From assembly GCF_900143005.1 (NCBI RefSeq), contig NZ_FRCS01000006.1, positions 124,001 to 188,000 of the forward strand: 64,000 nt of DNA. Reading direction: 5' to 3'. The translations under genes were made by a program, and so were the position numbers. The notes beneath the pieces were generated by a model. The model made no database searches, was not told the DNA's origin, and worked only from the letters and a program-made list of their open reading frames with translations. Positions 11,419-63,822 of the stretch are shown here, piece by piece (positions within the stretch are counted from its first letter, which is position 1; every line of letters starts with the position of its first letter). This stretch comes from Cryptosporangium aurantiacum. GTDB lineage: Bacteria > Actinomycetota > Actinomycetes > Mycobacteriales > Cryptosporangiaceae.

Positions 11419-11968
11419 GGCGAGTGAGTCAGGACCACGCCGGCGGCAATCCACCCCGTGGCGCAGAGACGGCCCGAGTGGATCCCATGCCGCCGCGACC
11501 GACTGTGGAAAGTGAACCGCAGCGTGGTCGGATCCGTTTCCCACGGAGATGTATGCTCGTCCGCGAGAAGCGGCGGATCCGTGTTTCGGGTCGCACGGTG
11601 ATTCGACCTGAAATAGCCATCGCAAGTCGTGATAGGTGTTCACTTGTGTATTCTCGCCACGCCGAGCCGCGACGTAACATCCGGCGGCCTTGACAGCTGA
11701 AGGATGTCCTTGTACGACACGCATACCACAAGGCGTGCTCGTGTGAACCACTCTGGGTCAAGAACCATTAGTCGGCTCCTTCGCCGATACTGGCAGTCGG
11801 TACCCAACGATCACCGATCCAACCGAGATTCCATCCCCAGCAGGGATTGACGCAGAATCACAGGTTGGTCGCGATAAGGCGGCACGTCGCATCCTAATTG
11901 CTTCGAACCGAAAGCACCTCATCAGCGGATAGGTTTAGCCAAGCCCTAACCCGGAACAATGTAGCGAG
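11419..11968. other. 550-base gap with no convincing gene
   Basis: This stretch, and especially 11560-11960, is visibly richer in A/T than its surroundings. No frame has both a good ribosome binding site and protein-like composition. The longest open frames are Arg-rich shadows. It probably holds the promoter of the NB-ARC-TPR gene. I see no clear -35/-10 pair or hairpin. Confidence 0.4.
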
Positions 11969-48444: not shown

Positions 48445-50017
48445 CGGGTGCGGCCAGCACGTTCCGGATCGCCGTGATCGACGGTGTGAAGAAATACTCG
48501 CCTCCGGTCGGCGTCACCCACGAGGGGCTCGCCGACACGGTGTGCGGGCGGGCCTCCGCGTCGAGCAGCGTGGCGAACAGCCCTTCGCCCTGACCGAGCA
48601 GCAGATCGTGGCCGGGCGGCCGGCCCCGCGGTACCGCCGGCCGCTGAACCCAGCTGTTGGTCAGCTTGGCGAACTGGTCGACGATCGACGCCTGGTAGCA
48701 GGCGAAGAGCAGTCCGCGCTCCGCGGCGGGATCACTGTCGTAGGACGGACCGAACGGCAGACCGCGCCGCAGGATGGTCCGCCGCAGGTTGTCGATCGCG
48801 CCCCCGACGTCACTGGCCTCGTCGCGTGGGTTGATCTTGCGGATGTGCGCCGCGGTGGGGCAGCGGACGGCGTCCGTATCGGCTTCGGGCCAGGGAAACC
48901 CGTCGGTCCGGGAGACGCCGCGCGGGAGGGGAACGTCGCCGCGCAGACGCGCCGGGCCCGTCGCGTGCGTACGCCACGCGGAGGCGAAGCCGAAGTCGTT
49001 GGCGGCGAAGTCGTCGCGCCCCAGCGCCGGGTCGTCGGCCTCGGGACTGCGGCTGATCGGGGCACCCGACGGCCAGCGGCCGACGAGCAGCGCCGCGAGC
49101 CGCTCCGACGAAACCCCCGGCATCGCGAGCGCGGCTGCCGATTCGCGGCAGAAACGACGGAACGCGTCGACGTCCTGGGACAGCCGCCGGATCACCAGAA
49201 ACGAGCCGTTCACCGCCCAGGACGGCCCCGTGCGCCAGGCCGGGGCAGGCTCCCCCACCCGGGCCGGCGATTGGCGCGGCAGACCGAGGACGAACTCCCC
49301 CGGCCAGACCAGGGGCGAGCCGGGGCGCGCGAACGCTTCCGCGCGCGGGTCGTCGGGATCGAGATAGCGCGGTGAGATCAGCGCACCGCTCGACAGGCGG
49401 CCGCGCGGTGCCGGCTGGGAGATGCCGTCCCGGAACCCGAAGTGCTCGTGGCCCGGCTGCTCGCGGCGGGTCGCACACGGCTGGTCGTGCACAAGGGTCC
49501 ACCCACCGGGCCGGGCGGTCAGCAGCGCGTCGACGTATTCGTGGGTGGCGCTGAGCACGCGCGGGTCGTCGGCGGCGATCGTCACGACCGCGTCGACCGG
49601 GCGGCCGCCGCCGAAGAGCCACCGGTTCGGGTGGCCCGGCGCGGCGGTGTCCTCGGCGTCACCCAGCGACCTCGACTGCTTCCGCATGCCTGCCTTGAAC
49701 GCGCTGTCCGCGAACGCGTCGACGTCGGGCTCACCGGCCAGGGCCGCCAACCCGGTCCGGGAGAACGCGACGTTGATCCAGACGGCGGTCATCGCACCGG
49801 CCGGTTCGCCGCGGCGCGACCGGGCACGCCGGAACGCCTCGTTGAACGCCGCGACGTCGGCCAGCGGCGAGATCCGCGGCAGCAGCGCGGCCAGCGACGC
49901 CTTCGCCGCGGCTACCGCCTCCAGGCGATAGAACAGGTACCGCGCGTGATCCTTCCGGAACCCCGCCAGGACGTCGCCCTGGATGTCGCCGTCGGGCAGC
50001 AGCGGCTCCTCGGTCAC
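48413..50017 (-). CDS. Large DyP-type haem peroxidase
   Basis: A 534-residue dye-decolourising-type peroxidase from GTG 50017 (VTEEPLLPDGDIQGDVLAGF). The distal motif GFRDG is at 194-198 (Asp197). The proximal haem ligand is His391 in TAAHIRKINPRD; the nearby motif ILRRGLPFGPSYD is also conserved. The C-terminal half includes GLLFACYQASIVDQFAKLTNSW. Length exceeds the usual 300-450 residues because of insertions around residues 205-340. No Tat signal and no encapsulin gene is near. Substrate unknown. It lies 8 bases downstream of the hypothetical gene at 50026, in the operon led by the 107-residue protein and the second NACHT. Confidence 0.9.
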   Translation of the reverse strand: MTEEPLLPDGDIQGDVLAGFRKDHARYLFYRLEAVAAAKASLAALLPRISPLADVAAFNEAFRRARSRRGEPAGAMTAVWINVAFSRTGLAALAGEPDVDAFADSAFKAGMRKQSRSLGDAEDTAAPGHPNRWLFGGGRPVDAVVTIAADDPRVLSATHEYVDALLTARPGGWTLVHDQPCATRREQPGHEHFGFRDGISQPAPRGRLSSGALISPRYLDPDDPRAEAFARPGSPLVWPGEFVLGLPRQSPARVGEPAPAWRTGPSWAVNGSFLVIRRLSQDVDAFRRFCRESAAALAMPGVSSERLAALLVGRWPSGAPISRSPEADDPALGRDDFAANDFGFASAWRTHATGPARLRGDVPLPRGVSRTDGFPWPEADTDAVRCPTAAHIRKINPRDEASDVGGAIDNLRRTILRRGLPFGPSYDSDPAAERGLLFACYQASIVDQFAKLTNSWVQRPAVPRGRPPGHDLLLGQGEGLFATLLDAEARPHTVSASPSWVTPTGGEYFFTPSITAIRNVLAAPVRPAPERPGD

Positions 50018-50025
50018 CGGGGCGT

Positions 50026-51207
50026 TCAAGCGCGGGTCGGGATGCCGGGCCAGCTCGGGATCCGGTCGGCCCCGGAGGGCGCGGCGAAGCTCGCGAAGCC
50101 GCGGCAGCCGATCGGCGGCGCCGGACGGAACCCCGGGACCGCGCTGGCGTAGAGCTTCATCGTGATGTGCTCGGCGATCTGGCCGGCGTACTCGATCGGG
50201 ACCCCGGCGATCTCCACGTCGCTGACCGTCCAACGGCTGCCGGCCGGCGGCGCGAACCGCGCTCGCAGAATCATCTCCGGCGTGCCGCGCTCGATCCGCC
50301 ACCACGCGGGATCCAGCGCCTGCCCGTCCGGCGTGGTCCAGCCGTCGAGGTTCACCGAGTCGATGTAGAGCCCGACCGGCGCACGCAGCGTGACCGCGTT
50401 CCCCTCCCGGACGGCGGCGTTCACGGTCGCGCCGATGTTCGGATCGCTCGACCGGCCCGGGTCGCCGTACCCGGCGCAGTTGATCAGGTCGACGGAGTCG
50501 GTCAGCAGGTTCCCGTTCCGCTGACGCAGGATGCTGGCGCGGGCGGCGAGGTTGACCTCGGCACCGAGGGTGTTGGCCGGATGCGTGAGGTGCATCGCGC
50601 CTCCGCTGACGTTCCACTCGTTGGACGGGTCGTAGACGCCGTCGACGAGCAGGTCGTCCAGCTGCACCTCCGGGCTGACGTATCGCCGGTAGAGCCGCAA
50701 CAGGACGTCGTGACTCCCGCGGGCCGGCGGGAGGTCCAGGCCCGCCTCGCGGATCCGGTACGGATATCCCTCCGCCAGCGCTTCCCAGTACTCGGGGCCC
50801 TCGCAGGTGAAATCGACAGCGTGGACGACGCCCTCGGGATCGCGCGTGGTGTGCCACTCGAGATACTCGTCCTGCTCGCGCCACCGCCGTCCGGAGGCCT
50901 CCTCGATGCGCTCGGCCTCCTGATACCGCTCCTCGCCACCGAACGCGTCGGCGATGCGCTTCGGGAAGCCGTTCCACGGGATCATGACCGTCGCCGCGCC
51001 GGCGAGCGGTCGCGCGGAGAACGCGTTGGGACGGCCGGGCCCGCCGAGCTCCTCCTGCACCAGCTGCGTTTGCCTGCTCATAACGGCCTGCATGAACGCG
51101 TCCCACGCGGCTAGCTGCCCCGGGATCTCCCGGAAGTCCGGGGCCTCACCCGGTGGGCCGAAGACCCGCAGCCCCGCCCGGCTCTCGGTGGTCACGCTCG
51201 TCATCAT
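50026..51207 (-). CDS. Conserved protein of unknown function between NACHT and peroxidase
   Basis: A 393-residue soluble protein. GGGAGAGGG precedes tandem Met codons; start at 51207 or 51204. Visible features: helical N-terminal third (AWDAFMQAVMSRQTQLVQEELGGPGR; RYQEAERIEEASGRRWREQDEYLEW), a middle with HAVDFTCEGPEYWEALAEGYP and CAGYGDPGRSSDPNIGATVNAAVREG, and a beta-rich C terminus (VTLRAPVGLYIDSVNLDGW). No known family recognised. Its 5' end overlaps the NACHT gene by 62 bases; that tight spacing suggests coupled expression with NACHT and the DyP enzyme. Confidence 0.75.
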   Translation of the reverse strand: MMTSVTTESRAGLRVFGPPGEAPDFREIPGQLAAWDAFMQAVMSRQTQLVQEELGGPGRPNAFSARPLAGAATVMIPWNGFPKRIADAFGGEERYQEAERIEEASGRRWREQDEYLEWHTTRDPEGVVHAVDFTCEGPEYWEALAEGYPYRIREAGLDLPPARGSHDVLLRLYRRYVSPEVQLDDLLVDGVYDPSNEWNVSGGAMHLTHPANTLGAEVNLAARASILRQRNGNLLTDSVDLINCAGYGDPGRSSDPNIGATVNAAVREGNAVTLRAPVGLYIDSVNLDGWTTPDGQALDPAWWRIERGTPEMILRARFAPPAGSRWTVSDVEIAGVPIEYAGQIAEHITMKLYASAVPGFRPAPPIGCRGFASFAAPSGADRIPSWPGIPTRA

Positions 51208-53344
51208 TCGTCCCTCTCCCGTTGGCTGCTCCGGCCTGACCCGGTCGGGCCGGCCGTGTCGTCCAGGACCACACCCGGGGAGCAGGCGCTGCAGCCGGCA
51301 GCCCCGGGCGGGTCAGGTACTTGACCAGGCAGGCGTGCCGGAACTCGTAGACACCCCCGACTTGGCGGAGGACGCCGCGGCGGCGGGCGTCTTCGAGCAG
51401 GGTCAGCACCTTGAGCGGCGCCAGCCCTCGAGCGGCGAGCCAGAGCCGGGTCGGGCCGAGCAGACCCCACTCGCTGCACGCGAGGCCGACGGTTGCCCCC
51501 GCGGCGACCGCCGGGACGAGGTAGAGGCTCCACGCGGCGGCAGACGGCAGCCCACCGGCGGGCTCGTCGAGCCCGGCCAGCTCGAGCAGGCCGCCGACCG
51601 CGGCCGCGAGGGCCGCGGTGACTACACCGGCGAGCGCAGCGGCCACCACGCCGACCAACTGGCCGCGGCGGCGGTCGCCGATCAACGTGGCGCGCGGCGT
51701 GGTCACCGCGGTCGGTAGCACCGGCTGTCCCAGCCCGCTGACGATCGTCAGCAGCACACCGATCACGATGCCGGCGGCGAGGACCTCACCCTCGAAGCGC
51801 AACAGCAGCCCGGCGACGATCGTCGCCACCGCGAGCGCGGCCACGGCCGCCGCCGGTCGCCACCGCAAACGCAGACCGAGGTGCCGAGGGCGGCATCCGG
51901 CCGCCACCACACGGAGGCTGAGCCAGCAGGCCAGTCCGACCGTCGTCCCGATCGCGACGCCGAACGCGAGGCCGTATCCCAGCCCGAGTCCGATGCCGTG
52001 GCGGTCCGCGGTGGCCCACCCGATGAGCACGCCGTGGCAGAGCGCGGCGACCAGACCGACCGCGGCGGCCAGCGTCGGCAGCAGCCGCGGCACGGCGGCC
52101 CGGAGCCGCCACCAGGCGATCGCCCCGTTCTGACTGCTGGCGTGCACGGCGAGGAAGCGCAGCCACGGCGTGACGACCGGGGCCGTCCACGGGCTCTCGT
52201 CGCCGGCGACGCGCCGGTAGGCCGCTGGCAGGAAGGCCTCCAGCAGGTGCGCCTCGATGCTGACCGTCGTCGGGAATCGTTCGCTGTCGAGCAGGTCGCC
52301 GGGGTCGGCTCGGGTGTCGCTGTACGCCACCCGCGCGAGCCCGATCATCAGCGGCGTTCGCAGTACCTGTGCCACTCGGCCGGCCGCGGTCTCCTGCTCG
52401 GGCTCTTGCTCCGGGTCCGCGGCCCGGATCGCCTCCAGCGCCGGTGTCCACTTCGATGTCAGGTCCGCCGCGGTACCGGTGGTCCGCGGCAGGTAGTCGA
52501 CCAGGTCGTCGACCGTGACGTCCCGGAGCTGGACACAGATCGCGCGGAGCAGCGGGCCCGTGCTCTCGACCGTCTCGGCATAGGCTTCGGGCCGGCAGGT
52601 GAGTACGACCGGGCAGGGCCCCTCCAGCTCGCGCAGCGCGGCGACGCGGTGGGCCGGTGGCAGCTCGTCGAGGCCGTCGAGTACCGGCAGGATCCAGTTC
52701 CCCTCGACCAGCCGCCGGGCGCCGGAGGGCTGGTTGTTCCCCGACGTGAGCGCGAGGAACGGGTAGTCGAACGACAGCCGGCGGATCAACCAGCGGGTCA
52801 GGGTCTCCTGCTCGGGATTCCAGCCGGAGAGCGTGAGCAGTACCGGCACGCGCCGCGGGTGCCCGTCGTCGTGCTCGGCGTCCGTCGTCCACCAGCGGTC
52901 GATCAGATCGAGGGTGAGCCGCAGGACCATCACGGTCTTGCCGGAGCCGGGTTTGCCGAGCAGGACGGCGCGGCCGGTCGACAGGGCCGCGTAGCGCTCG
53001 ACGATGTCGTCCAGGCACCCGTCGACCAGCGGATGCTCGTCGCCCCCGTCGCGGCGGATGTTCGCCCAGCGGTCGCACAGCCGCGGGTCGGCGGCGGCCC
53101 AGCGCAGCTCGAGCGGCCGGGGAGCCCGGATGCGCCGGAGCCGCTCCTCCTCTGTCCACTGGGTGCGGACGGCACGGGCCAGCTCAGCGGCCAGCTTCGC
53201 CGCGTCGTCCGAGCCGCCCTGGCGGCGGGAGCGCAGGAACATCCAGACACCGAGCGTGGTCGTGACGAACGTCAGCAACGTGCCGACCACGCCGAGGATC
53301 TCCTTGACCCCCAGACCCGCGACGGCCGGTTCGGCGCTCGTCAT
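51146..53344 (-). CDS. Membrane-anchored NACHT NTPase (second of a facing pair)
   Basis: A 732-residue paralogue of the protein at 41351. The ATG at 53344 overlaps the upstream stop (ATGA). One N-terminal helix at about 15-37 (ILGVVGTLLTFVTTTLGVWMFL); P-loop LGKPGSGKT (129-137); Walker B WILPVLDGLDELPP; VVLTCRPEAYAETVEST; PLMIGLARVAYSDTRADPGDLLDSERF, nearly word-for-word the equivalent stretch in the first NACHT. C-terminal membrane helices follow, and the tail motif is LLEDARRRGVLRQVGGVYEFRHACLVKYL. The final ~25 residues run into the next gene. Likely an independent sensor controlling the leftward genes. Confidence 0.88.
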   Translation of the reverse strand: MTSAEPAVAGLGVKEILGVVGTLLTFVTTTLGVWMFLRSRRQGGSDDAAKLAAELARAVRTQWTEEERLRRIRAPRPLELRWAAADPRLCDRWANIRRDGGDEHPLVDGCLDDIVERYAALSTGRAVLLGKPGSGKTVMVLRLTLDLIDRWWTTDAEHDDGHPRRVPVLLTLSGWNPEQETLTRWLIRRLSFDYPFLALTSGNNQPSGARRLVEGNWILPVLDGLDELPPAHRVAALRELEGPCPVVLTCRPEAYAETVESTGPLLRAICVQLRDVTVDDLVDYLPRTTGTAADLTSKWTPALEAIRAADPEQEPEQETAAGRVAQVLRTPLMIGLARVAYSDTRADPGDLLDSERFPTTVSIEAHLLEAFLPAAYRRVAGDESPWTAPVVTPWLRFLAVHASSQNGAIAWWRLRAAVPRLLPTLAAAVGLVAALCHGVLIGWATADRHGIGLGLGYGLAFGVAIGTTVGLACWLSLRVVAAGCRPRHLGLRLRWRPAAAVAALAVATIVAGLLLRFEGEVLAAGIVIGVLLTIVSGLGQPVLPTAVTTPRATLIGDRRRGQLVGVVAAALAGVVTAALAAAVGGLLELAGLDEPAGGLPSAAAWSLYLVPAVAAGATVGLACSEWGLLGPTRLWLAARGLAPLKVLTLLEDARRRGVLRQVGGVYEFRHACLVKYLTRPGLPAAAPAPRVWSWTTRPARPGQAGAANGRGTNDDERDHREPGGAAGLRPTG

Positions 53345-53664
53345 TTCTTGCCGTGCGTGATCCCGCAACGGTGGAGGAACTTGTGTTGCCAGCCCTGTCC
53401 CTTCTTGTGCTTGCTGTCGTTGAAAGACCTCAGGGTCCGGCCGAAGGCGTCGCGATCACGCGCGTCCATCGTGTGCTGCTCCTCCTCCTCGAAGCGGGGC
53501 CGGCAGTCGTTGAATGCTTGGCGCAGCACCTCCGGGCCGGGAGGCGTCGAGGGCAGCAGATGCTCGTCCGGATCGTCGGACAGCGCGACGACGGCGCGAA
53601 CCTCGCGTTCGTAGAGCGCGAGGAGGTCCTCGTCGCTCGGATTCTCGGGCAGCTGGTCGCTCAT
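53341..53664 (-). CDS. Small charged protein coupled to the second NACHT
   Basis: A 107-residue protein from ATG 53664, after GAGGGG. Acidic N-terminal two thirds (SDQLPENPSDEDLLALYEREVRAVVALSDDPDEHLLP; RFEEEEQHTMDARDRDAFGRTL) and a basic His-rich tail (NDSKHKKGQGWQHKFLHRCGITHGKK). No recognised family. The stop overlaps the NACHT start, so it is translated with it and is the positional counterpart of the 137-residue protein in the first NACHT operon, though not similar in sequence. Confidence 0.72.
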   Translation of the reverse strand: MSDQLPENPSDEDLLALYEREVRAVVALSDDPDEHLLPSTPPGPEVLRQAFNDCRPRFEEEEQHTMDARDRDAFGRTLRSFNDSKHKKGQGWQHKFLHRCGITHGKK

Positions 53665-53693: not shown

Positions 53694-53736
53694 TAGACCA
53701 TTTTGGCCTATTTCATGCTATCTGTAACAAAGTTAC
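53694..53736. promoter_or_regulatory. Two inverted repeats in the divergent NACHT / peroxidase-like control region
   Basis: TAGACCA-TTT-TGGCCTA (53694-53710, one mismatched pair) and GTAAC-AAA-GTTAC (53724-53736, perfect) lie in the 101-base AT-rich gap between the leftward 107-residue gene and the rightward cyclooxygenase-like gene. They are good candidates for operators that tie the two gene sets together. The binding protein is unknown. Confidence 0.45.
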
Positions 53737-53765: not shown

Positions 53766-55307
53766 ATGACCGACGTCTCGAGCCGCGAGCGTGCCGCGCC
53801 ACCACCGCCCGTGGACACCGACACCGCAGCAGCCGCCGTCCCCCGCGACACCTCCCGCGACGGACAGCTCCAGCGGATCGAGGCCTACGCCCTCTCGCAC
53901 GGCGCGCCTCTCTGGAACGCCCTCCGGCGGGTGCCCCCGCTGAACGCCGTGGTCAACCGCGCGCTGATCAACCGCGCGATCCTCACGATCCCGCCGCGCC
54001 CCAACCCGCTGAGCACGATGGCGTCCTACACGTCCTGGCCGTCGCTGACCGACCGCACCTTCGACAGCCGGCACCTGCCGCCGTCCCCCGCCCCCTCTGC
54101 CCTTCCCGACCTGGGGGCGGCCACCGCGCTGTTCGCACGCACCGCCACCCGGCCGTGCCCCAAATCCACGGTGTTCTTCGCGTACTTCGCGCAGTGGCTC
54201 ACCGACGGCTTCCTGCGCAGCGACCGCGGCGACCCGCCCGACCCGCGCAAGAACACGTCCAACCACGAGATCGACCTGTGTCAGGTCTACGGGCTGACCG
54301 AGTCGGTGACCCGGCTGCTGCGCTCCGGCGACGGCGGGCTGCTGAAGGCTCAGGACATCGACGGTGAGGAGTACCCGCCGTTCCTCTGCTCCGGCGGGGT
54401 CGTCCGGCCGGAGTTCCGCGGGCTGTCGGTGGTGGGTTTCGACGAGCTGACCGCCTCCCAGCGCGACCGGTTGTTCGCCCTCGGCGGCGACCGGTCCAAC
54501 TCCCAGCTGGGCTACACCGCGATCAGCGTGCTGTTCCTCCGCGAGCACAACCGCATCGCGCGGCTCCTCGCCGCGGAGTACCCGCGCTGGGACGACGAAC
54601 GGCTGTTCCAGACCGCCCGCAACGTCCTGACGATCCTCCTGATCCGGATCATCATCGAGGAGTACGTCAACCACATCACGCCCTACCACTTCCGGTTCCG
54701 GCTCGACCCGACGGTAGGGCGGGGCAGCCACGGCATGGGCCGGATCCTCGTCGAGGCGTCCGGCCAGCGCGCCGGGCGCATCGCGCTGCACAACACCGCC
54801 CCGGAGCTGCTCCACCTCGAGCGCGCCAGCCTCCAGCAGGCGAGGACCGTCGAGCTGGCCCCCTACAACGCCTACCGCGCGATGATCGGCGTTCCGCGTG
54901 CGACCTCCTTCGCGCAGCTCACCGCCGATCGCACGATCCAGCGGCAACTGCGCGAGCTCTACGGGCACGTCGATCGCCTGGAGTACTTCGTCGGCCTGTT
55001 CGCCGAGGACCTGCGACCGAACTCAGCGCTACCGAACCTCGTCGGGCGGCTGGTGGCCGCCGACGCGTTCTCCCAGGTGCTGACCAACCCGCTGCTGGCT
55101 CCCCGCGTCTTCACCGAGCGGACGTTCTCCCCGCTCGGCATGCGGCTCCTGCGCCAGCCCTGCACGCTGGGCGAACTCGTCCGGCGCAACGTCGGCCGCA
55201 CCGAAGCGCAAGCCCTGCGTACCGGCACGATCACGATGACCTGGGCCGGCTGGCGCCGCCAGGCCGAGACGGGGGTGACTCGTGGCGGACGTCGTCCCGA
55301 CGCGTGA
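53766..55307 (+). CDS. Cyclooxygenase-like haem-peroxidase homologue, apparently lacking haem ligands
   Basis: A 513-residue member of the animal-type peroxidase (prostaglandin synthase-like) family from ATG 53766 after GGGAGG. Clear family stretches: NHEIDLCQVYGL (168-176), LFLREHNRIARLLAAEYPRWDDERLFQTAR (257-284), IIIEEYVNHITPYHFRFRLDP (296-315), SLQQARTVELAPYNAYR, LRELYGHVDRLEYFVGLF. Compared from memory with mammalian enzymes, the distal His position in FAQ(H)xxTH is Asp147 (FAQWLTD). The segment carrying the catalytic Tyr and proximal His (LYHWH) is absent: only 15 residues separate DP(315) from ASGQRAGR (331) where the mammalian enzymes have about 60-70. It may be a non-haem scaffold or a different catalyst. 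First gene of the rightward cluster. Confidence 0.82.
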   Translation: MTDVSSRERAAPPPPVDTDTAAAAVPRDTSRDGQLQRIEAYALSHGAPLWNALRRVPPLNAVVNRALINRAILTIPPRPNPLSTMASYTSWPSLTDRTFDSRHLPPSPAPSALPDLGAATALFARTATRPCPKSTVFFAYFAQWLTDGFLRSDRGDPPDPRKNTSNHEIDLCQVYGLTESVTRLLRSGDGGLLKAQDIDGEEYPPFLCSGGVVRPEFRGLSVVGFDELTASQRDRLFALGGDRSNSQLGYTAISVLFLREHNRIARLLAAEYPRWDDERLFQTARNVLTILLIRIIIEEYVNHITPYHFRFRLDPTVGRGSHGMGRILVEASGQRAGRIALHNTAPELLHLERASLQQARTVELAPYNAYRAMIGVPRATSFAQLTADRTIQRQLRELYGHVDRLEYFVGLFAEDLRPNSALPNLVGRLVAADAFSQVLTNPLLAPRVFTERTFSPLGMRLLRQPCTLGELVRRNVGRTEAQALRTGTITMTWAGWRRQAETGVTRGGRRPDA

Positions 55308-56271
55308 CGATCAGTACGTTTTGAACCACTGCACGAGATTTCTCGCGAGGGACGTCGGAGTACCGTCCGAACCGTTTCACTTCCCGGTGATCGACGCTCA
55401 CTGGGACGGGCAGTCGTATCAGTTCAACGACGTGACGTTCGTGTACGACGCCCGCGCGGACCCCGCCCGCTCGGTGGGCGTCCTCGGGACGTTCGCCGAG
55501 CTCTACGCGCCGGTGCCGCTGCGCGAGGTGGCGTTTCTCGGTGAGCCGACCGGTCTGTGGGCCGTCACCATCCGGGTCCCGAAAGGACAGACGCATGTCT
55601 ACCGCTACACGGTCGACGGCACGCTGCGAACCGACCCGATCAATCCGCAACGCGAACTCCGCGACAACGGCGCCGAATGGTCGCGGTTCTTCACCGACGG
55701 GTGCGCGATCCCGATCCTGTTCGAACGCTGGGAGTGGCAACTCCTCGAACGGCTGATCAACACGCTGCTCCCGTTCCAGGTCGCCGAGAACCGTCGATTC
55801 CTCGCCGAGACGTACAACCGGCTCGACCGGTCGGCGCGCGACGGCCAGTTCCCGTTCGCCTACCGGCTCGACGAGGCGATCGGCACCGTGAATTTCATCG
55901 ACAAACTCCTGGCCCGCCGGGAGGCGCACAATCTGTCGAGCTACCGGGTCTGCCTCCGCCAGATCGACCGGATCCTGCGCGATCGTCACCCCGATCAGGA
56001 GCCGTCCGAGCTCGGGCGTCAGGTGTACGTCGACCTGTACGACGAGCTGGCCGCCAACGCGGTCGCCGGGTGGGATCACAGCGCCTACGCCGATCCGTCC
56101 TACTTCCTGCTGCTGCTGCGGCGTCACGCGATGACGGGCGCGTTCGCCCACCCCAAGCACGGCGGCAACGCGGGCGCGGCCGGCTGGGCGTACCTGAGCG
56201 AGCGGTTCCCGTTCGACTGGGCCAACGCGGTCGAAGCACCGCTCGGCCGCAACACCGACTACCGGGGCTGA
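55282..56271 (+). CDS. Gluconate-2-dehydrogenase subunit-3-like protein fused to an E-set domain
   Basis: A 329-residue protein from GTG 55282, overlapping the previous gene by 26 bases. The C-terminal part (about 135-329) matches the small subunit of two-subunit GMC dehydrogenases, ending GAFAHPKHGGNAGAAGWAYL ... APLGRNTDYRG. The N-terminal ~100 residues (FNDVTFVYDARADPARSVGVLGTF; GLWAVTIRVPKGQTHVYRYTVDG) form a CBM48/AMPK-like E-set beta sandwich, unusual in this family. No Tat signal, so a cytoplasmic complex with the GMC enzyme encoded 3 bases downstream is expected. Confidence 0.82.
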   Translation: MADVVPTRDDQYVLNHCTRFLARDVGVPSEPFHFPVIDAHWDGQSYQFNDVTFVYDARADPARSVGVLGTFAELYAPVPLREVAFLGEPTGLWAVTIRVPKGQTHVYRYTVDGTLRTDPINPQRELRDNGAEWSRFFTDGCAIPILFERWEWQLLERLINTLLPFQVAENRRFLAETYNRLDRSARDGQFPFAYRLDEAIGTVNFIDKLLARREAHNLSSYRVCLRQIDRILRDRHPDQEPSELGRQVYVDLYDELAANAVAGWDHSAYADPSYFLLLLRRHAMTGAFAHPKHGGNAGAAGWAYLSERFPFDWANAVEAPLGRNTDYRG

Positions 56272-56274
56272 TCG

Positions 56275-58068
56275 ATGGCAGACGAGACGTTCGACGCCGT
56301 CGTCATCGGCAGCGGGGCGGGCGGCGCACCGGTGGCGCACGCGCTGGTCAAGGCAGGCAAGCGAGTACTGGTCCTGGAGAAAGGACCGTTGTTCCAGCCG
56401 CAGTACAGCAGCCCCAGCGGGCTGAGCGACTTCAAACGCGACGAGGAGTTCGCGACCGGCCCGGAGAAGAAGCTCACGGTGCCCGGGGTGGCCAACACCG
56501 GTAGCTCGTTCTACTCCAGCCACGTCGAGCCGGACCTCAACGACGAGCCGCACGTCTATCGCAACACCGACGGCCTTGACTACGTCACGATCGAGGGTTA
56601 CACCGCGCAGGTCGTCGGCGGCGGAACGCAGCTCTACGGCGGGGTGTCGTTGCGCTACCCGCCGTCCGACCTGCGGCTGGCGTCGGCCAACGCAGGGCGC
56701 ACCGACCTGCGCGCCGACCCCGCCGGTGACGTTCGGCGCGAGGCCCGCGACTGGCCCGTCCGGTACGAGGACCTGGAGCCCTACTACACCCGCGCGGAGG
56801 AGCTCGTCGGCCTCAACGGCACCAGGGACGGGCAGCTCAAACCCGCCAGCCGGGATCACTACCAGCCGCCACTGGAACCCAACTCGATCAGCGAGCACGT
56901 CAAGACCGGCCTGGAGGCGCTCGGTTACGCGTACTACCGGACGCCGCTGGCCGTCATCACCCGCGACCACGGTCCGAGCGGCCGGACCGTGCCCGCCGAC
57001 CACGAGTCGATCCGCACCGCGTTCGTCAACCGGTACGGCGACCCGCTCGGCTTGAAGTCGAACACCTGGGTGTCGCTCCTGCAGCCGATCAGCACGTCGT
57101 CGAACTTCGAACTGCGTGCGAACTGCGTGGTGACGCACCTGTCCGCGACCGGCTCGCGGCTGTCCACCGTCCACTATCGCGATCCGGTCGGTCGCGCCCG
57201 CACGGTGAGCGGGACCGTGGTGGTCGTCGCGTGCAGCGCGATCGAGACGGTTCGGCTCCTGCAGCTCTCGGCCGCTGCCGACGACGCGCTCGCCGCGCGT
57301 CTCAACGGAAACGACCTGCTCGGCCGGTACTTCCTCACGCACTGCTTCGGCGGCGCCTCGGCACGGGTGCCCGGGCGGCACGACAAGTCACGGACGCTCG
57401 ACTCCGACTACGCCACCGACGCCTGCGCCGGCGACGACTTCGTCCGGGCGAACGGTCTGTGGGCCGGTGGCGCGATCTACAACAACACGTCCGACGCCGC
57501 CCTCCCGATCAGCATGGCGCGCACCTGGGCGGCCAACGACATGGACACGATCTGGAAGGGTTACCTCTACGACCCGGAGATCCGTGGCAGGTCGTTCGAG
57601 GAGTACCTCACCCGCAACTTCGGACGCTTGCTGTCGGTGGCGTTCATGGCCAACCAGGTTCCGCTCCCCACCAACCGGATCAGCCTGCACCCGACGGTCC
57701 GCGACAAGTGGAACCGGCCGGTCGCGTACATCACCAAAGGCTGGCACAGCCACGATCTCGCGGTGATGGACACGCTCGCCGCCCAGTGCCTGGCCATCCT
57801 CGAGCGGGGCGGTCCGGGCATCGAGATCGTGGGATCCGGGCACGTGGGGAACGACGTCCGCCGCATCGCGAACCACGTTCTCGGCGGCGCGCGGTTCGGC
57901 ACCGATCCCGCCGACTCGGTGCTCGACCCCGACTGCCGGGCGTGGAACTTCGACAACCTCTACGTCACGGACGGGTCGTTCATGCCGACGTCCGGCGGTG
58001 CGAACCCGACCCTGACCATTCAGGCCAACGCCTTCCGCGTCGGCGAGTTGCTCACCGCGAGGGTGTGA
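56275..58068 (+). CDS. GMC-family FAD oxidoreductase (large subunit)
   Basis: A 597-residue flavoenzyme. The FAD-binding motif is VVIGSGAGGAPVAHALVKAG (residues 10-29); GGGTQLYGGVSLRY is the second flavin contact. The C-terminal GMC_oxred_C part contains the catalytic-region motif NHVLGGARFGTDPADSVLD and NLYVTDGSFMPTSGGANPTLTIQANAFRVGE. Long enough and similar enough to gluconate/sorbitol-type dehydrogenases that the preceding subunit-3-like gene is its natural partner. The substrate is probably an alcohol or polyol. No cytochrome subunit gene is present, so the electron acceptor is unknown. Confidence 0.9.
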   Translation: MADETFDAVVIGSGAGGAPVAHALVKAGKRVLVLEKGPLFQPQYSSPSGLSDFKRDEEFATGPEKKLTVPGVANTGSSFYSSHVEPDLNDEPHVYRNTDGLDYVTIEGYTAQVVGGGTQLYGGVSLRYPPSDLRLASANAGRTDLRADPAGDVRREARDWPVRYEDLEPYYTRAEELVGLNGTRDGQLKPASRDHYQPPLEPNSISEHVKTGLEALGYAYYRTPLAVITRDHGPSGRTVPADHESIRTAFVNRYGDPLGLKSNTWVSLLQPISTSSNFELRANCVVTHLSATGSRLSTVHYRDPVGRARTVSGTVVVVACSAIETVRLLQLSAAADDALAARLNGNDLLGRYFLTHCFGGASARVPGRHDKSRTLDSDYATDACAGDDFVRANGLWAGGAIYNNTSDAALPISMARTWAANDMDTIWKGYLYDPEIRGRSFEEYLTRNFGRLLSVAFMANQVPLPTNRISLHPTVRDKWNRPVAYITKGWHSHDLAVMDTLAAQCLAILERGGPGIEIVGSGHVGNDVRRIANHVLGGARFGTDPADSVLDPDCRAWNFDNLYVTDGSFMPTSGGANPTLTIQANAFRVGELLTARV

Positions 58069-58071
58069 CCG

Positions 58072-59214
58072 ATGGATCCGGCATTCGACGACATCCAGAC
58101 GCAACCGGAGAACGAGATCTTCCGCGTGGTGTTCTTCCCCGACCGCATCTACCACGCCCGCTACCTCTCCGCGACGCGCAGCCCGCGGTACCGGTACGAC
58201 GTCGACGAGGTGCGCAACGGTCCGGACATCCTCGCGGCGAAGGGCAGCGTTTATCTCGACGGGCGGCGGTTCGCCGGGGTGTTGCGAGTGGAGTACCGGG
58301 CCGGGCGGTTGGTGGAGCTGGCCCGGGAACGCGGGCGCACGCTCGGCATGTCGATCAACGTCTGGACGAGGGTCCACCCCGCCGACACGAGCCTGACCGC
58401 CGACGCCACGGTCACGGCCCGGTACGACCCGCTGGTGGACGCCTACGCCGTCGAGATGTGGGACACGCTCGAACCGCCCGACGGCACCTCCCACGACCAT
58501 CGTGTCCTTCCGCTGATGGGCGCGAACGCACCGATCACCAGGCCGCCCGCCCTCGCGCCCGCGCTGGCCGACATCCGCGGCGTGCGCCGGCTGGAGCTGG
58601 CGTTCAGCGAGGTGGGCCGGGCGAGCCCCACCGGCGCTCTGCTACCCGACGTGCAGTGGGACAACAACTTCCTGCGGTCGTACCAGGCGCCGAACACCCC
58701 GGAGCCCAGCTCGTCCCAGAACACCGTGTCGGTGCTCAACTACCTGCTCGACTATCAGCGCGCGTTCTTCTTTCCGAACGCGTCCGACACCCTCCCGGTG
58801 CGGTACCGCAACGCGATGATGGACGAGGACAACCCCGACGCCGTGCCCGGCGACGCCAACGTGCTGGAGATGCGCTGGCTCCTCCAGCGGGAGCTCGGCG
58901 GGGACCTGGTGTTCTTCCACGAGGTGACGATTCCGCCCGGCGTGGTGGAAGGCACCCACCGGCACATCGGCTCGGAGGAGCTGTACTACGTGGTCTCCGG
59001 GAGAGGCCGCGTCTACCTGGGCGTCGACGACGATCCGACGCTCGCGTCCGCACCCACCGTGACGAAGCAGATCTACGGGATCGGGTCCCGGCCGTGCCGC
59101 GAGGTCAGCGTCGGACCCGGCAGCACGCTGCTCACGAAGAGCGGTGGCATCCACGGAATCCGGAACGACGGGGACGAGCCGCTGAAGTTCGTCGCCTTCC
59201 TCTACCAACCCTAG
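58072..59214 (+). CDS. Two-domain protein with C-terminal cupin (first copy)
   Basis: A 380-residue protein beginning 3 bases after the GMC stop. The N-terminal ~230 residues are of unknown fold (FRVVFFPDRIYHARYLSATRSPRYRYDVDEV; WDTLEPPDGTSHDHRVLPLMG). The C-terminal cupin carries the metal set THRHIGSEELYYVV (His296, His298, Glu302/303) and His361 in GGIHGI. Such sets bind Fe, Mn or Ni in dioxygenases, isomerases and decarboxylases. The next gene encodes a distant relative of the same layout, suggesting a heteromer or successive steps. Confidence 0.8.
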   Translation: MDPAFDDIQTQPENEIFRVVFFPDRIYHARYLSATRSPRYRYDVDEVRNGPDILAAKGSVYLDGRRFAGVLRVEYRAGRLVELARERGRTLGMSINVWTRVHPADTSLTADATVTARYDPLVDAYAVEMWDTLEPPDGTSHDHRVLPLMGANAPITRPPALAPALADIRGVRRLELAFSEVGRASPTGALLPDVQWDNNFLRSYQAPNTPEPSSSQNTVSVLNYLLDYQRAFFFPNASDTLPVRYRNAMMDEDNPDAVPGDANVLEMRWLLQRELGGDLVFFHEVTIPPGVVEGTHRHIGSEELYYVVSGRGRVYLGVDDDPTLASAPTVTKQIYGIGSRPCREVSVGPGSTLLTKSGGIHGIRNDGDEPLKFVAFLYQP

Positions 59215-59226
59215 GGGCCCAGCAGT

Positions 59227-60462
59227 ATGCAGATTGTGCACTCCGACGCGGTGTACCGGGTCGAACCGGGCACGGTGCCGGCGTACTCGTCCAACAATCC
59301 GATCGAGCGGCTCCTCACGGTCGCGCAGTCGGTCCGGCTCGCCGCCGACCGCGAGCAGTACGCCCCCGCCGCGCTCCAGTACCTGCTGCCGCACAGCTGG
59401 CTCGCCCTGTACGGCCCGAGCGCCCCCAACTCGGACGTGTCGGACCCGGCCGCGCAGGACTTCAAGACCGACTTCCAGAAACAGAACCTCGCCGACTTCC
59501 GCCTGGCCGACACCCAGGCCGTTCGTGGTTGGGCGCTCGCGCAGGACTGGACCGGTCCGTTCCTGCACGTCTCCTACCGCGGCGGTCCCGACAGCACGCT
59601 GTCCGCCGCGACCGGTCACCGCCTCGGCGATCGGCTCGTGCTGCGGCTGGCGATCGAGAACGGCGGCGCGGCGGACGTGCCGGCGATCTACGATCCGGCG
59701 AGCGACCGCTACGTGGCGGAGCTGTGGGGCTACCGCGGCGACGGTCTCGTCGACCGGCTCGGGCCGCGGGGCCGGGAATCGTTCGAACGCGGGGTGCTCC
59801 AGGCGCGGCCCGACCTCGCGCGCGGTGAGGCGATCACGTTCGCCCGGGAGAACCTGCTAGGGCAGGACGTCCGGACCGTCGCCACCGATCACCTCCTCCA
59901 CCCGCTGCGTCCGCTGCGGTTCACCGTGCAGTGGCGCACGCCGGACGGCGCCGCCGCCGACCCGCCGCTGCAGCTCGCTTTCGAGATGGTCGTCCGCGGC
60001 TGGGACAGCTACCTCGAGGTGGGGCGGAGCCCCAATCCGCACGGCGGTGTCGGTGCTCTCGAGTATCGGAACCTGCTGTCGAACTACTTCCGCTACGCGG
60101 GCTCGGACGAGTTGGGACGCCACCTCGAGACCCACAATCTGGACGCGTTCGGCCGCCGCGCCGCCGCCGGAGCCTCCGAGCCGTTCCTCGCGGTCGACTA
60201 CCTGGACCTCCACGTCATGGACCCGGGTTCCGGCATCGGGCTGCACCGCCACCGCGACAACTCCGAGGCGTTCCTGATGCTCGACGGCGAGGGCTGGATG
60301 GTGATCGGCGACTGGGCCGACAGCGGTCGCCGGGCCCGTTCGTTCGAGGTTCGGATGCTGCAGTCGGGGCATCTGGCGCTGCTGAAGGGCGGCAGCTTCC
60401 ACGGGCTGACCAACCCGATGGCCCGGCCGGCGTCGCTGTTCATGTTCGGCGGGTACGACTGA
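59227..60462 (+). CDS. Two-domain protein with C-terminal cupin (second copy)
   Basis: A 411-residue protein 12 bases after the first cupin gene. Unknown N-terminal ~310 residues (YLLPHSWLALYGPSAPNSDVSD; GPFLHVSYRGGPDSTLSAATG). The cupin has LHRHRDNSEAFLML (His340, His342, Glu347) and His392 in GSFHGLTNP, a complete metal-binding set. Last rightward gene; it ends 3 bases from the convergent gene at 60466 with only a tiny GACGC-TCAG-GCGTC hairpin between. Activity unknown; with the GMC pair and the MfnB-like protein it probably acts in the same pathway. Confidence 0.8.
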   Translation: MQIVHSDAVYRVEPGTVPAYSSNNPIERLLTVAQSVRLAADREQYAPAALQYLLPHSWLALYGPSAPNSDVSDPAAQDFKTDFQKQNLADFRLADTQAVRGWALAQDWTGPFLHVSYRGGPDSTLSAATGHRLGDRLVLRLAIENGGAADVPAIYDPASDRYVAELWGYRGDGLVDRLGPRGRESFERGVLQARPDLARGEAITFARENLLGQDVRTVATDHLLHPLRPLRFTVQWRTPDGAAADPPLQLAFEMVVRGWDSYLEVGRSPNPHGGVGALEYRNLLSNYFRYAGSDELGRHLETHNLDAFGRRAAAGASEPFLAVDYLDLHVMDPGSGIGLHRHRDNSEAFLMLDGEGWMVIGDWADSGRRARSFEVRMLQSGHLALLKGGSFHGLTNPMARPASLFMFGGYD

Positions 60463-60465
60463 CGC

Positions 60466-61506
60466 TCAGGCGTCCACCTCGGCTGCCCGCTGCCCGGCGG
60501 TGGCGGGCATTCCGTTCGGCGAGACGGGCACGGCCGCGACCTCGTACCCGATCGACGTCTCGGCTTCGGCCTCGGCCAGGCCGCAGGGCCCGGCGGCGAA
60601 GTACGCGGCGATCTGCTCACCCGGCCCGTACGCGGGGTCGGCGACCCGGGCCCGGTTCAGCCGCGCCATGAGGTTCCACTCGTCGTGGCTGCCGAGGCTG
60701 TACGCGGCGCCGGCCCGAACCGTGTAGTAGCGGACGAACTCCTTGCGGCGGGCCTCCCACAGCCGGGCGTCGGAGGGGTTGGTGAGGTCGAGCAGCCGGG
60801 TGGCGCCGTCGCTGTCGGGGCCGGCCGCGAAACTCACGAAGAACTCCGGGTCGATCGCGTACTTGCGGGCGAAGTACTCCTCCACCTTGGACGCCAGCGT
60901 GCCACCGTCGGCGCTGCCGCCGCCGGTCCTCCCGCCGGAGGTCCGGCCGCCCGCGCCGAAGAACTCGTGCATGTCGTCCGGCCCGAGGAAGTAGTACGCG
61001 TCGAACAACCCGCCGAGATGCCGCCCGCTCCGGGAGCGCCCCGGCGGGTCGGCGAGGTACCCGTCCTCGACCAGTACCCGGGTCCACATCCGCATGTAGT
61101 CCCCGCCGCCCGGCTCTGCCTGCGCCCGCAGTCCGTCCAGGGTCAGCTCCCGGCCGGTCTCGCGGGCCAGGTCGGCGATGTGCCGGACGATCAGCCCGGT
61201 GCCCTCCTTCGACTCCAGCTGGTACGCGGCCGGGTTGACGACGAAGAACCGCTCGCCCCACTGGCTGGCCAACCGGCGCGCGACGAAGTTCGCGATCTCG
61301 ATGTTGGTGCCGAAGTGGCCACCGCCCCGGGAGCTGATCGGGCAGCTCAGGTAGACGACGATGCGGTCCTCGGCCTGGGCGCGGGCGATGTCCGACTGGA
61401 TCAGCGCGACGTGCCGCTCGAAGATCTCGAACCAGTCCCCCGCGTGCCAGCGGAACCGCATGATCGGGCGAGCGGGGACCGGGTAGCCGGTGGTGAGGTC
61501 GTCCAT
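60466..61506 (-). CDS. Nucleoside-deoxyribosyltransferase-like protein
   Basis: A 346-residue protein from ATG 61506, 2 bases after the upstream stop. RIVVYLSCPISSRGGGHFGTNIEIANFVARRLA at about 48-80 resembles the first strand-loop-helix of the nucleoside 2-deoxyribosyltransferase fold (YL(S/A)GP...). FFVVNPAAYQ follows at the second strand. A Gly/Ser/Thr-rich insert (GAGGRTSGGRTGGGSADGG) lies near residue 180. The rest (KVEEYFARKYAIDPEFFVSF; EFVRYYTVRAGAAYSLGSHDEWNLMARLN) is helical and unassigned. Overall family uncertain. The fold hint suggests cleavage of an N-glycosidic bond or binding of a nucleotide-like group. Confidence 0.65.
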   Translation of the reverse strand: MDDLTTGYPVPARPIMRFRWHAGDWFEIFERHVALIQSDIARAQAEDRIVVYLSCPISSRGGGHFGTNIEIANFVARRLASQWGERFFVVNPAAYQLESKEGTGLIVRHIADLARETGRELTLDGLRAQAEPGGGDYMRMWTRVLVEDGYLADPPGRSRSGRHLGGLFDAYYFLGPDDMHEFFGAGGRTSGGRTGGGSADGGTLASKVEEYFARKYAIDPEFFVSFAAGPDSDGATRLLDLTNPSDARLWEARRKEFVRYYTVRAGAAYSLGSHDEWNLMARLNRARVADPAYGPGEQIAAYFAAGPCGLAEAEAETSIGYEVAAVPVSPNGMPATAGQRAAEVDA

Positions 61507-61508
61507 GT

Positions 61509-62414
61509 TCACCGTCCCCAGCCGGTCGTGCCGAGCACGGCGTTGTTGCGGACCTTGATCCGCTCCGGGACCTCGCGGTTGTACGTCTCGACGAAGTTCA
61601 CTCCGTCGGCGTCCACATCGATCTCGTCCATCACCCGCAGCACGGTGAACCACGTGTTGAGCAGGCCGTCGAAGTGGGCGATGCACCAGGTCAGCTCGGT
61701 GAGCATGCCGTTGACGTACGCGTCGAGATACGCCGGTGTGCCGGCGTCGGGCGTCTTGGCCAGCGGACCGGTCGTGATCGCCCGATCGGCCTCGCCGCGC
61801 AGCACCTCACGCAGCTCGGCGAACTGCGCGTCGGTGACCGCGTGCGGGTCGTCGTGGATCGTCTCGGCCAGCCGCAGGCTCAGCAGCTGCACCTCGGTGT
61901 AGAGCGGCTCCCCGGCCTCGCCGTACGTCCGGCGCTCGTAGGCGGGGCGGCCCTCCGCGTCCACCAGCCGCAGCAGCATCTCCTCGGCCCGCAGGGCCCG
62001 CTCGGCCGGATCAGGGTGCGGCAGGTCCCGGCAGAGCGTCGTGTACCCGATGAACGCGTGGTGGGTGAGCGAGTACCGGCTCCGGTTGAGCAGGCTGACC
62101 AGGTTGATCACCAGTTCCTTGGTGACCCGATCGAGGAACCCGGTCTGCGGGAACAGCACACAGCCCGCGACCGGGTCGCCGTCCGGCTGCGGCCGGTTGC
62201 CGTAACTGACCGGGTCGAAGATGAACGAGTTCGCGTAGTCGACAAGGGTCCGGGCCAGCCCGGGCTGCCAGGCCGTGGTCCGGATGAGGTTGTTCGGGAT
62301 GCCCCAGGTCCGCACGCTCTTGTCGTACGCGGCGAGCACGTACGGGTCGGCGCGCTCGGGCGGGAGCGGAGGCACCCGGGAGCCGGGCACGCTGGGCAGG
62401 ATCAGATCAGACAT
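61509..62414 (-). CDS. Carboxymuconolactone-decarboxylase/AhpD-like protein without the CxxC pair
   Basis: A 301-residue helical protein from ATG 62414 (MSDLILPSVPGSRVPPLPPER; GGGGAG upstream). DRVTKELVINLVSLLNRSRYSLTHHAFIGY has the spacing of the AhpD/CMD core helix (E......N..Y....H). RYSLTHH stands where peroxidase members have CxxCxxxH, so thiol-based peroxide reduction is unlikely. A second CMD-like half (about 210-270, AYVNGMLTELTWCIAHFDGL) suggests duplication. Relatives act as decarboxylases or isomerases. Between the MfnB-like and transferase-like genes in one leftward run. Confidence 0.7.
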   Translation of the reverse strand: MSDLILPSVPGSRVPPLPPERADPYVLAAYDKSVRTWGIPNNLIRTTAWQPGLARTLVDYANSFIFDPVSYGNRPQPDGDPVAGCVLFPQTGFLDRVTKELVINLVSLLNRSRYSLTHHAFIGYTTLCRDLPHPDPAERALRAEEMLLRLVDAEGRPAYERRTYGEAGEPLYTEVQLLSLRLAETIHDDPHAVTDAQFAELREVLRGEADRAITTGPLAKTPDAGTPAYLDAYVNGMLTELTWCIAHFDGLLNTWFTVLRVMDEIDVDADGVNFVETYNREVPERIKVRNNAVLGTTGWGR

Positions 62415-62457
62415 GAGGGATCTCCCCGGAGGCAAGTGAATCAGTGCGGCCGGATGC

Positions 62458-63822
62458 TCAGCTGACCGGCGTGAGGCGGCCGTGCTTGTCGGCCCAGAAG
62501 CAGGCCAGCCCGGGATAGCGGGCGAGCGCCTGGTCGACGGCCTCGACGGCAGTGCGCTTCATCTCCTCCGGCAGCCAGAGGTAGCCGTCCTGCTCCGGCG
62601 GGAGGAGGCCGCCGACCAGGGCGCGCTTGATCACGCGGTCACGGCGCGAGTCCTCGCCGACGTCGTTCGGCCGCGCCGGGTCCGACGTGACCGCCGAGGC
62701 GCCGCCGCGGGTGGAGACCTGGTCGACCTCGGGCACCAGCCGCCAGATCTGCTGGGCGTGATAACTGGTGAACGAGCCCGCCAGGTTCGCCTCCAGCCCC
62801 CGGTAGTGGCAGTACTCCACGAAGAACCGGATCTCGTCGAGGGAGAGCACGCCGCGCCGCTCCAGCCCGGTGACCTCGTCGATGTCGAGCGAGTTGAAGT
62901 CGATCATCTGCGGGCTGCGCTCGGTGGCGACCAGGCTGACCCGGGAGACCTTGAGCAGGACGCTGGTGTCGAGCATGATCGCGTCCGCGCCGGCCCGCGC
63001 GGTCGCGTCGACCATGTTCTTGATGACCTCGCGGTCGGTGCGCCGGGACCGCGGATCGCTGGTCAGCCCGAAACTCGCGTGCGGAAACAGGTCGTTGAGC
63101 GCGATCCGGGTGTGCCGCGCGTCGTCGGGCAGGACGCCATTTTCGATCAGCGACTCCAGGCTGACCTCACCCGGGTCGGTGAACAGCAACCGGCCGTCCT
63201 CGCCGCGCAGTGTCCCCACCGCGTACTCGGTCAGGTCGAAGTCCTGCTCGCCGCCGCCGTCGCTGGTGTGGAACTCGCGCAGGCTGACCAGTGCCCGACG
63301 GACGTCCGGCCGGGACCGGCGCTGCTCCCACAGATCCAGGTCCTGGGCGAAGAGCACCGACATGACCTGGGTGTGCGAGAACTGCTCGGTGCGGTCGAGG
63401 GTCTGGACGCACTCGCGCAGCACGTCGGTCAGGATGTCCAGCGGCATGCCGTCCAGGCCGACCTTCACGATCGTGCAGGGGTGCACCCGGTTGCCCATCG
63501 CGACCGCGACGCCGAGCGCCGCCTGCGCGGCCTTGCCGGCGATCTCGTAGGGCGACTTCTGGATCGCCTGGCCGTTGGCCGAGCGGTCGAACAGGAGTTG
63601 ATCCTCGCCGATGTTCGTGGAGAGCTGGACCTCCAGGTCCCGCCGGTAGTTCAGGACGGCATCGCTGATCGCCATGATCTGCTGGGGCTTGATGTTGCCG
63701 AGCGCGCTACGAGGATCCTCGCTGTCGACGATGCGCGCACCGCCGAGTACTGCTTCTCGCGCTTCTTGGGCGTTGAACACGCTGACCAAGAGTTTGTGAT
63801 TGTTCGTCCGGTCAGCAGGCAT
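62458..63822 (-). CDS. MfnB-like (5-formylfuran-3-yl)methyl-phosphate-synthase homologue
   Basis: A 454-residue TIM-barrel protein from ATG 63822 (GGGGAG upstream). Opening KLLVSVFNAQEAREAVLGGARIVD, then ALGNI, KVGLDG (120-125), GADAIMLDT (278-286), FFVEYCHYRGLEANLAGS and TRGG track the archaeal enzyme MfnB, which makes the furan of methanofuran from glyceraldehyde 3-phosphate. Differences: the archaeal VDVKNP motif, whose Lys is catalytic, reads VDSEDP here (Glu35). The Lys of DTAIKDG is displaced (DTSVLLK, Lys291). About 110 extra residues sit at 130-240. It probably keeps the barrel but runs different chemistry. First gene of the leftward run. Confidence 0.75.
   Translation of the reverse strand: MPADRTNNHKLLVSVFNAQEAREAVLGGARIVDSEDPRSALGNIKPQQIMAISDAVLNYRRDLEVQLSTNIGEDQLLFDRSANGQAIQKSPYEIAGKAAQAALGVAVAMGNRVHPCTIVKVGLDGMPLDILTDVLRECVQTLDRTEQFSHTQVMSVLFAQDLDLWEQRRSRPDVRRALVSLREFHTSDGGGEQDFDLTEYAVGTLRGEDGRLLFTDPGEVSLESLIENGVLPDDARHTRIALNDLFPHASFGLTSDPRSRRTDREVIKNMVDATARAGADAIMLDTSVLLKVSRVSLVATERSPQMIDFNSLDIDEVTGLERRGVLSLDEIRFFVEYCHYRGLEANLAGSFTSYHAQQIWRLVPEVDQVSTRGGASAVTSDPARPNDVGEDSRRDRVIKRALVGGLLPPEQDGYLWLPEEMKRTAVEAVDQALARYPGLACFWADKHGRLTPVS

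Follow-up and report, generated by a model that had tools for sequence, protein, structure and literature searches.

A compact eight-gene stretch of Cryptosporangium aurantiacum is probably a meeting point of two conserved operons and a cyclooxygenase-like gene rather than one pathway

We analyzed a window of 64,000 nucleotides from the 9.58-Mb genome of Cryptosporangium aurantiacum (assembly GCF_900143005.1, contig NZ_FRCS01000006.1, positions 124,001 to 188,000 of the forward strand), in which eight closely packed genes, here termed A to H, had initially been annotated as one compact pathway around a furan synthase of the MfnB type, MfnB being (5-formylfuran-3-yl)methyl phosphate synthase. 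In window coordinates, these genes are:

53766..55307, plus strand: A, cyclooxygenase (COX)-like protein (An_peroxidase, PF03098), nearest solved chains COX-2 and COX-1
55282..56271, plus strand: B, Gluconate_2-dh3-like small subunit (PF13618, over the cut-off; alignment) with a weak N-terminal CBM48/AMPK1_CBM-like domain
56275..58068, plus strand: C, GMC flavoenzyme (PF05199/PF00732), putative catalytic subunit of the B-E operon
58072..59214, plus strand: D, metal-type cupin (PF07883), N-terminal part without assignment, paralogue of E
59227..60462, plus strand: E, second cupin protein of the B-E operon (PF07883 below the cut-off in this copy; alignment)
60466..61512, minus strand: F, family-less protein (YLSxPxS ... 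GxDYMxMWT ... GSHDEW) found by alignment also in H-G-F operons and on rhizobial plasmids
61509..62414, minus strand: G, conserved family-less protein, weakly peroxidase-related/CMD-like (alignment)
62458..63822, minus strand: H, MfnB-family protein (4HFCP_synth, PF04476), 454 aa, with the Schiff-base Lys position occupied by Glu (alignments to 4rc1/4u9p)

All eight open reading frames (ORFs) are open, A to E running rightward and F to H leftward, and three bases lie between the stop codons of E and F. From A-B to F-G the gaps are -26, 3, 3, 12, 3, and -4 bases; that between G and H is 43 bases from the ATG at 62414 (46 if measured from 62411). The ORF calls thus bear out the annotated layout of five rightward and three leftward genes meeting tail-to-tail with gaps of few bases, and the stated lack of an internal regulator agrees with the Pfam results of the eight proteins, which contain no regulator family. 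A search at lengths from 8 bases upward did not recover the inverted repeats reported at 53694-53736. As judged by eye, the genes downstream of H are a divergent sigma-factor-like gene and then unrelated ones.

Genes B-C-D-E recur together elsewhere. A search with D in 396 genomes of the phylum gave 19 matches, and only those in the source genome and in genome G238 spanned the full length, the other 17 being short and partial (E 9e-6 or weaker). G238 carries B-C-D-E in the same order with 48, 65, 55, and 52% identity, respectively, and was alone among 24 genomes of its class in having D at E up to 1e-25. The 30 kb fetched around this locus held no relative of A, F, G, H or of W393, DyP, X (context genes listed below) and Y, and H was absent from the whole G238 genome. 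Among 72,556 plasmid records D was found in a single one, which also contains C at E up to 1e-80: pMVF16-5 of Microvirga sp. VF16, with B, C, D, and E in order (42, 58, 51, and 41% identity). The block therefore occurs without A and F-H in both G238 and the Microvirga plasmid. C at E up to 1e-60 was found in none of 60 other relatives, three genomes of the same genus included, and a viral contig scan with D returned no relatives. In G238 and pMVF16-5, the gene following B-C-D-E encodes a CBM48 domain and an alpha-amylase (GH13). In the Cryptosporangium window F stands after E at this place and the GH13 gene is missing; three CBM_48 matches in the same genome all lie on other contigs. In Azospirillum, a GMC gene lies close to W393, but it shares only about 27% identity with C, and the locus was excluded from the B-E count.

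Pfam confirmed the annotated GMC pair, assigning C to GMC_oxred_C/_N and B to Gluconate_2-dh3 (32.3 bits). The AMPK1_CBM match of B (23.3 bits, cut-off 26.8) recurs in 3/3 homologues, below the cut-off in each. A solved-structure search with B gave a best E of 0.32; for C, the nearest solved chains were one named glucose dehydrogenase, followed by the large subunit of fructose dehydrogenase. Of the two annotated cupins, D holds by its Cupin_2 match over the cut-off, while E falls below it (21.2 bits, cut-off 27.2) and its Microvirga relative exceeds it (27.7). Metal binding by cupins involves an HxH...E pattern plus the His of a second motif. This feature of the superfamily is present in both proteins, with residues H296, H298, E302/E303, and H361 of D and H340, H342, E347, and H392 of E invariant in 3/3 sequences. 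D and E are paralogous (hhalign Prob 95.5 over 282 columns). As judged from gene content and order, B-C-D-E is a conserved operon. Alcohol oxidation by a two-subunit GMC enzyme appears reasonable, and the operon most likely oxidizes a sugar or glucan-derived alcohol. C would catalyze the FAD-dependent oxidation of an alcohol of a sugar or glucan fragment, and B would hold or mature C and may bind alpha-glucan via its CBM48-like domain. The metal cupins D and E might then isomerize or oxidize the keto product. The substrate may be provided by the GH13 enzyme encoded next door in the two other genomes.

The leftward genes form a second recurrent group. H matched 4HFCP_synth with 51.5 bits at a curated cut-off of 22.4. 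Three H loci, all from Streptomyces (L004, L005, L006), were found in a genome-contig scan and three more (L035, L036, L037) in a sample of 392 genomes of the genus of G472, taken as Streptomyces because of genes shared around H; 149 other genomes of the window's order contained none. Among 61 relatives, PF04476 was detected in the source genome only; among 14 controls it was found in two, both methanogens. Plasmid searches with H and G gave no match. H, G, and F stand together in 5/6 of these loci (L004, L005, L006, L035, L036), and a LysR gene lies divergent from H in all five, whereas the window has none there. In L005, a weakly DoxX-like gene (17.9 bits, cut-off 23.6) is inserted between G and F. 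L037 contains H alone (59%), as a homologue at 9804-11480 with a long in-frame C-terminal extension and no G, F or LysR hits. In the DNA fetched, which for L004 ends 170 bases after F, none of the six loci has relatives of A-E, W393, DyP, X or Y, so that H-G-F occurs without A-E. As judged from these loci, H-G-F is a second conserved operon.

H aligns to MfnB (4rc1/4u9p) over its N-terminal 45 residues and in two weak further stretches of -1.0 and 3.9 bits; the residue map given here combines the HMMER alignment with an assumed offset of 7 residues for the tag. D25 of MfnB corresponds to D33 of H and is kept, and K85 corresponds to K120 within the stretch of -1.0 bits. By eye only, D285-T-S of H could correspond to D151/K155 of MfnB, in a second active-site region that hmmsearch left unaligned. 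The position of Lys27 is occupied by Glu35 in H, and this Glu is invariant in 7/7 sequences, that of the window included. Lys27 of MfnB is described as forming the Schiff base (PMC6604932), and K155 is named as catalytic (PMC11365854). The label MfnB-like therefore stands as far as family membership goes, but not for the Schiff-base chemistry. Because the Schiff-base Lys is replaced by Glu, a furan product of H is unlikely, and it was rejected as a candidate.

The labels given to the partners of H were not confirmed. No CMD Pfam match was found in six members of the G family, which showed weak DUF7889 matches in 3/6 (best E 0.094); G itself scored 15.3 bits with TIGR01926, far below the cut-off of 81.8, and a solved-structure search with G yielded nothing useful. 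F alone had no Pfam match. Nine members of its family included one with weak DUF3567 similarity (E 0.06) and none with a deoxyribosyltransferase match, and the solved-structure search with F returned only a spurious antigen match. The structure predictions for F and H were too poor for a fold search (pLDDT, the predicted local distance difference test score, 36.0 and 39.3, respectively), and a viral contig scan with F gave no relatives. H might be an aldolase-fold protein that would be unable to use the Lys27 chemistry of MfnB, with F and G as its partners, and the operon may carry out a small-molecule step, which would be LysR-linked in other loci.

Gene A was correctly recognized as COX-like (An_peroxidase, 148.9 bits), but its catalytic segment is absent. 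The alignments to COX-2 and COX-1 (E about 1e-47) fall into two stretches flanking chain residues 334-383, and about 48 residues with the catalytic Tyr and the proximal heme His are missing in frame. In COX-like peroxidases, the motif YxWH holds these two residues, and we take Tyr and His of the YRWH segment to be Tyr385 and His388 of COX. We found COX-like relatives in six other genomes (7 loci) of 295 and in 13 of the 72,556 plasmid records. Twelve of these 20 were aligned (6 of the 7 loci and 6 of the 13 records; G080 was omitted as its frame is split in the ORF calls). All 12 retain YRWH, which only A lacks; the frame of A stays open across the loss. Since the segment is missing in A and present in 12/12 relatives, A is probably inactive and most likely does nothing catalytic now; a working peroxidase was rejected for the missing segment. 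At 13 COX-like loci examined, there were no relatives of B-E or F-H. A P450 gene adjoins the COX-like relative in three rhizobia, and a catalase-family gene does so in Paracoccus and Methylobacterium. These loci of Rhizobium/Sinorhizobium, Paracoccus, and Methylobacterium (L054, L069, L071, L070, L072) resemble bacterial oxylipin gene pairs. In L058, a stretch near the COX-like gene is 29 to 32% identical to the rhizobial P450s.

The co-occurrence of the eight families in other genomes had been set beforehand as the test of the single pathway, and the families were found apart. A-H as one unit was rejected, its pieces being separate in every other genome seen, and because of this separation the eight-gene pathway is unsupported. 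The pairwise comparison of loci was restricted to pairs covering at least 40% of the query; W393 was masked there and tested by tblastn instead. We consider it probable that the stretch is the meeting point of separately inherited pieces in an enzyme-rich, NACHT-bearing accessory region, namely two conserved operons, B-C-D-E and H-G-F, and gene A without its catalytic segment. Several points weigh against this interpretation. Two operons that converge with three bases between them could nevertheless be linked in function in this one strain, as modules can be combined into accessory pathways. The comparison covers only three loci of B-E and seven of H, the window's own included in each case, and the H homologue of L037 has no G and F beside it. 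The case for a sugar substrate is built on distant homology, a sub-cut-off CBM match, and GH13 neighbors that are absent here, and the loss in A was seen in one draft assembly. In the literature searched, mostly by title, we found no description of the cluster, the two operons or the adjacent island, which says nothing of other papers.

The region to the left of A contains the following context genes:

51146..53368, minus strand: X, NACHT-like STAND protein (PF05729, E 0.0016, below the cut-off)
50026..51207, minus strand: W393, no Pfam family; adjoins DyP and is found near F homologues on plasmids
48413..50029, minus strand: DyP-type peroxidase next to W393 (PF21105/PF20628)
46540-48444: M36 fungalysin-type protease (Pfam) adjoining the non-specific endonuclease, no obvious signal peptide
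45658..46521, plus strand: DNA/RNA non-specific endonuclease of the neighboring island (PF01223)
41351-43612: second NACHT-like gene (Pfam, below the cut-off)
34749-36134: TIR_2 protein with weak PADLOC TIR matches

Starting from A, the order is a small ORF, X, W393, DyP, the M36 protease, the non-specific endonuclease, and the second NACHT-like protein. A-H might belong to a conflict or cell-death island of many enzymes controlled by the NACHT proteins, in which oxidases, peroxidases, nucleases, the protease, and F would act on the cell or an invader. We regard this alternative as unlikely, although it can draw on the two NACHT-like genes, the endonuclease, the protease, and DyP in the same window and on the lack of a clear N-terminal signal stretch in A-H (crude hydrophobicity scan, no set threshold). 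It is further favored by the distribution of F, which was found in 4 of the 72,556 plasmid records and, among 296 genomes of the class, in the source genome only; W393 was found in 25 records and three genomes, the source included. W393 lies within 20 kb of F in three of the four F records, two of which are from the same strain. Among independent plasmids this makes 2/3, the distance being about 13 kb in Microvirga lotononidis and about 19 kb in Bradyrhizobium barranii. The probability of such co-location by chance was roughly estimated at 6e-8 to 5e-5, assuming random placement and, besides the whole collection, 20 W393 loci in a guessed eligible sequence of 2e8 to 2e9 bases. A listing of 60 out of 78 records was kept out of the co-location count. 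The third plasmid, from Bradyrhizobium sp. 41S5, has F without a W393 hit, beside an S1/P1 nuclease, DUF3616, PLD-like, and non-specific endonuclease genes and two (trypsin-like) serine peptidases. The window endonuclease is 37% identical to one near F on a Bradyrhizobium plasmid. On the M. lotononidis plasmid, F is accompanied by genes for an EEP nuclease, a GMC protein, and a caspase, and an oxidase of the LodA type lies further on; this EEP gene is 44% identical to one adjoining F in Streptomyces fumigatiscleroticus (L006), and EEP hits were absent from L004, L005, L035, and L036. G960, one of two other actinomycetes with W393, has a TIR homologue at a distance of about 15 kb from it. Phospholipases or endonucleases are reported as effectors of CARD-NLR systems (PMC13236601), and protease-activated nucleases have been described (PMC12799240). 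The former paper uses "peroxidase" once, in naming an antibody reagent, and the latter does not contain the word; GMC was not searched in either. In term searches, the main texts of PMC8195603 and PMC7159879 on NTPase conflict systems contain no peroxidase, cupin or P450.

Set against this, the DNA fetched for the six H loci contains no W393, DyP, X or Y, and the two other actinomycetes with W393 show no relative of A-H within the 36 kb fetched for each. The plasmid records yielded neither H nor G, and the one plasmid with D and a close C relative has no W393 hit. PADLOC, run with 10 proteins, gave hits only for the TIR protein (6 models) and for one NACHT protein (mad8, 13.7 bits); A, C, F, and H, the A-H proteins tested, and X had no match. 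In addition, F, W393, and the COX-like gene occur elsewhere without the island. The annotated option that the cluster extends the NACHT island is partly supported by the rhizobial plasmids with F and W393, but not by the H-G-F loci or the two actinomycetes. An even broader reading appears more doubtful still: the region from about 41 to 64 kb could be a recurrent mixed island of lytic and oxidative enzymes, parts of which are found in actinomycetes, rhizobia, and others. Around NACHT, caspase or trypsin-like switches, such an island would combine peroxidases, H2O2-forming oxidases (GMC, LodA), nucleases, proteases, a phospholipase, and proteins such as F and W393 into an oxidative-burst-like cell-death arsenal.

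Some further observations concern these islands. DyP adjoins W393 on plasmids of Mycetohabitans and Nostoc, as in the window, where the two genes (48413-51207) overlap. The M. lotononidis locus (L077) is a dense oxidase island with LodA-type oxidase, ferritin-like, radical-SAM-like, GMC, EEP nuclease, and caspase genes, and includes an ORF of 907 aa whose C-terminal part matches W393. The Bradyrhizobium F homologues of L067 and L068 start with a signal-peptide-like stretch, by eye, and the window F does not. Of two plasmids of Microvirga sp. VF16 (NZ_CP069359.1, NZ_CP069358.1), one carries B-C-D-E and the other encodes a W393-PLD protein together with S8 and C1 peptidases.

Cooperation of A with B-E, with the altered COX-like protein serving the GMC-cupin operon as a scaffold or sensor without catalytic activity, would fit the overlap of 26 bases between A and B and the frame of A kept open across the loss. 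We consider it improbable, as the other two B-E loci have no A-like gene beside B-E and in five plasmid loci the partner of an intact A relative is a P450 or catalase-family gene. A biosynthetic or detoxification pathway of all eight genes via a furan or related small ring, suggested by the compact layout and the MfnB-family gene, is the least credible, given the separation of its pieces, the Glu in H, and the segment missing from A.

With two separate operons as the preferred reading, a tempting misreading of a compact cluster is corrected and replaced by two testable units. One is a GMC-cupin operon with a glucan-binding-like subunit and the other an operon around an MfnB relative without the Schiff-base lysine. 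Operons of the H-G-F type are linked to enzyme islands with immune-like genes by F, a protein without a Pfam family, and the gene pool of the region appears to overlap with enzyme islands of distant bacteria. If the link by F were functional, metabolic enzymes would belong to bacterial cell-death arsenals.

Comparison with known systems shows partial likeness in each case. The window shares NACHT-like proteins beside endonuclease and protease genes with CARD-NLR and NLR-related anti-phage systems, but no CARD or gasdermin was identified, the NACHT proteins here gave no convincing PADLOC match, and A-H are connected to them only through the proximity of F and W393. Over most of its length, A shows 36 to 56% identity to bacterial COX-like peroxidases, and it shares with the 12 aligned ones an Asp at the distal-His position, but it alone is without the segment that holds the catalytic Tyr and the proximal His. 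H resembles MfnB in its PF04476 match and in the positions of D25 and, within the weak stretch, K85; it differs by the Glu at the Lys27 position and by its length of 454 aa compared to 228 Pfam-model positions, with a long stretch between the matched ends. A multiheme cytochrome c subunit encoded in the operon is a defining feature of FAD-dependent glucose and fructose dehydrogenases of this type; among A-H, there was no Pfam match to a cytochrome family and no clear signal peptide. With these enzymes (PDB 6a2u, 7w2j), the best solved matches of C, the B-E operon shares a GMC catalytic subunit beside a Gluconate_2-dh3 small subunit. It differs in the extra CBM48-like domain of B, in the two cupins that follow C, and in the GH13 gene of the two other loci.

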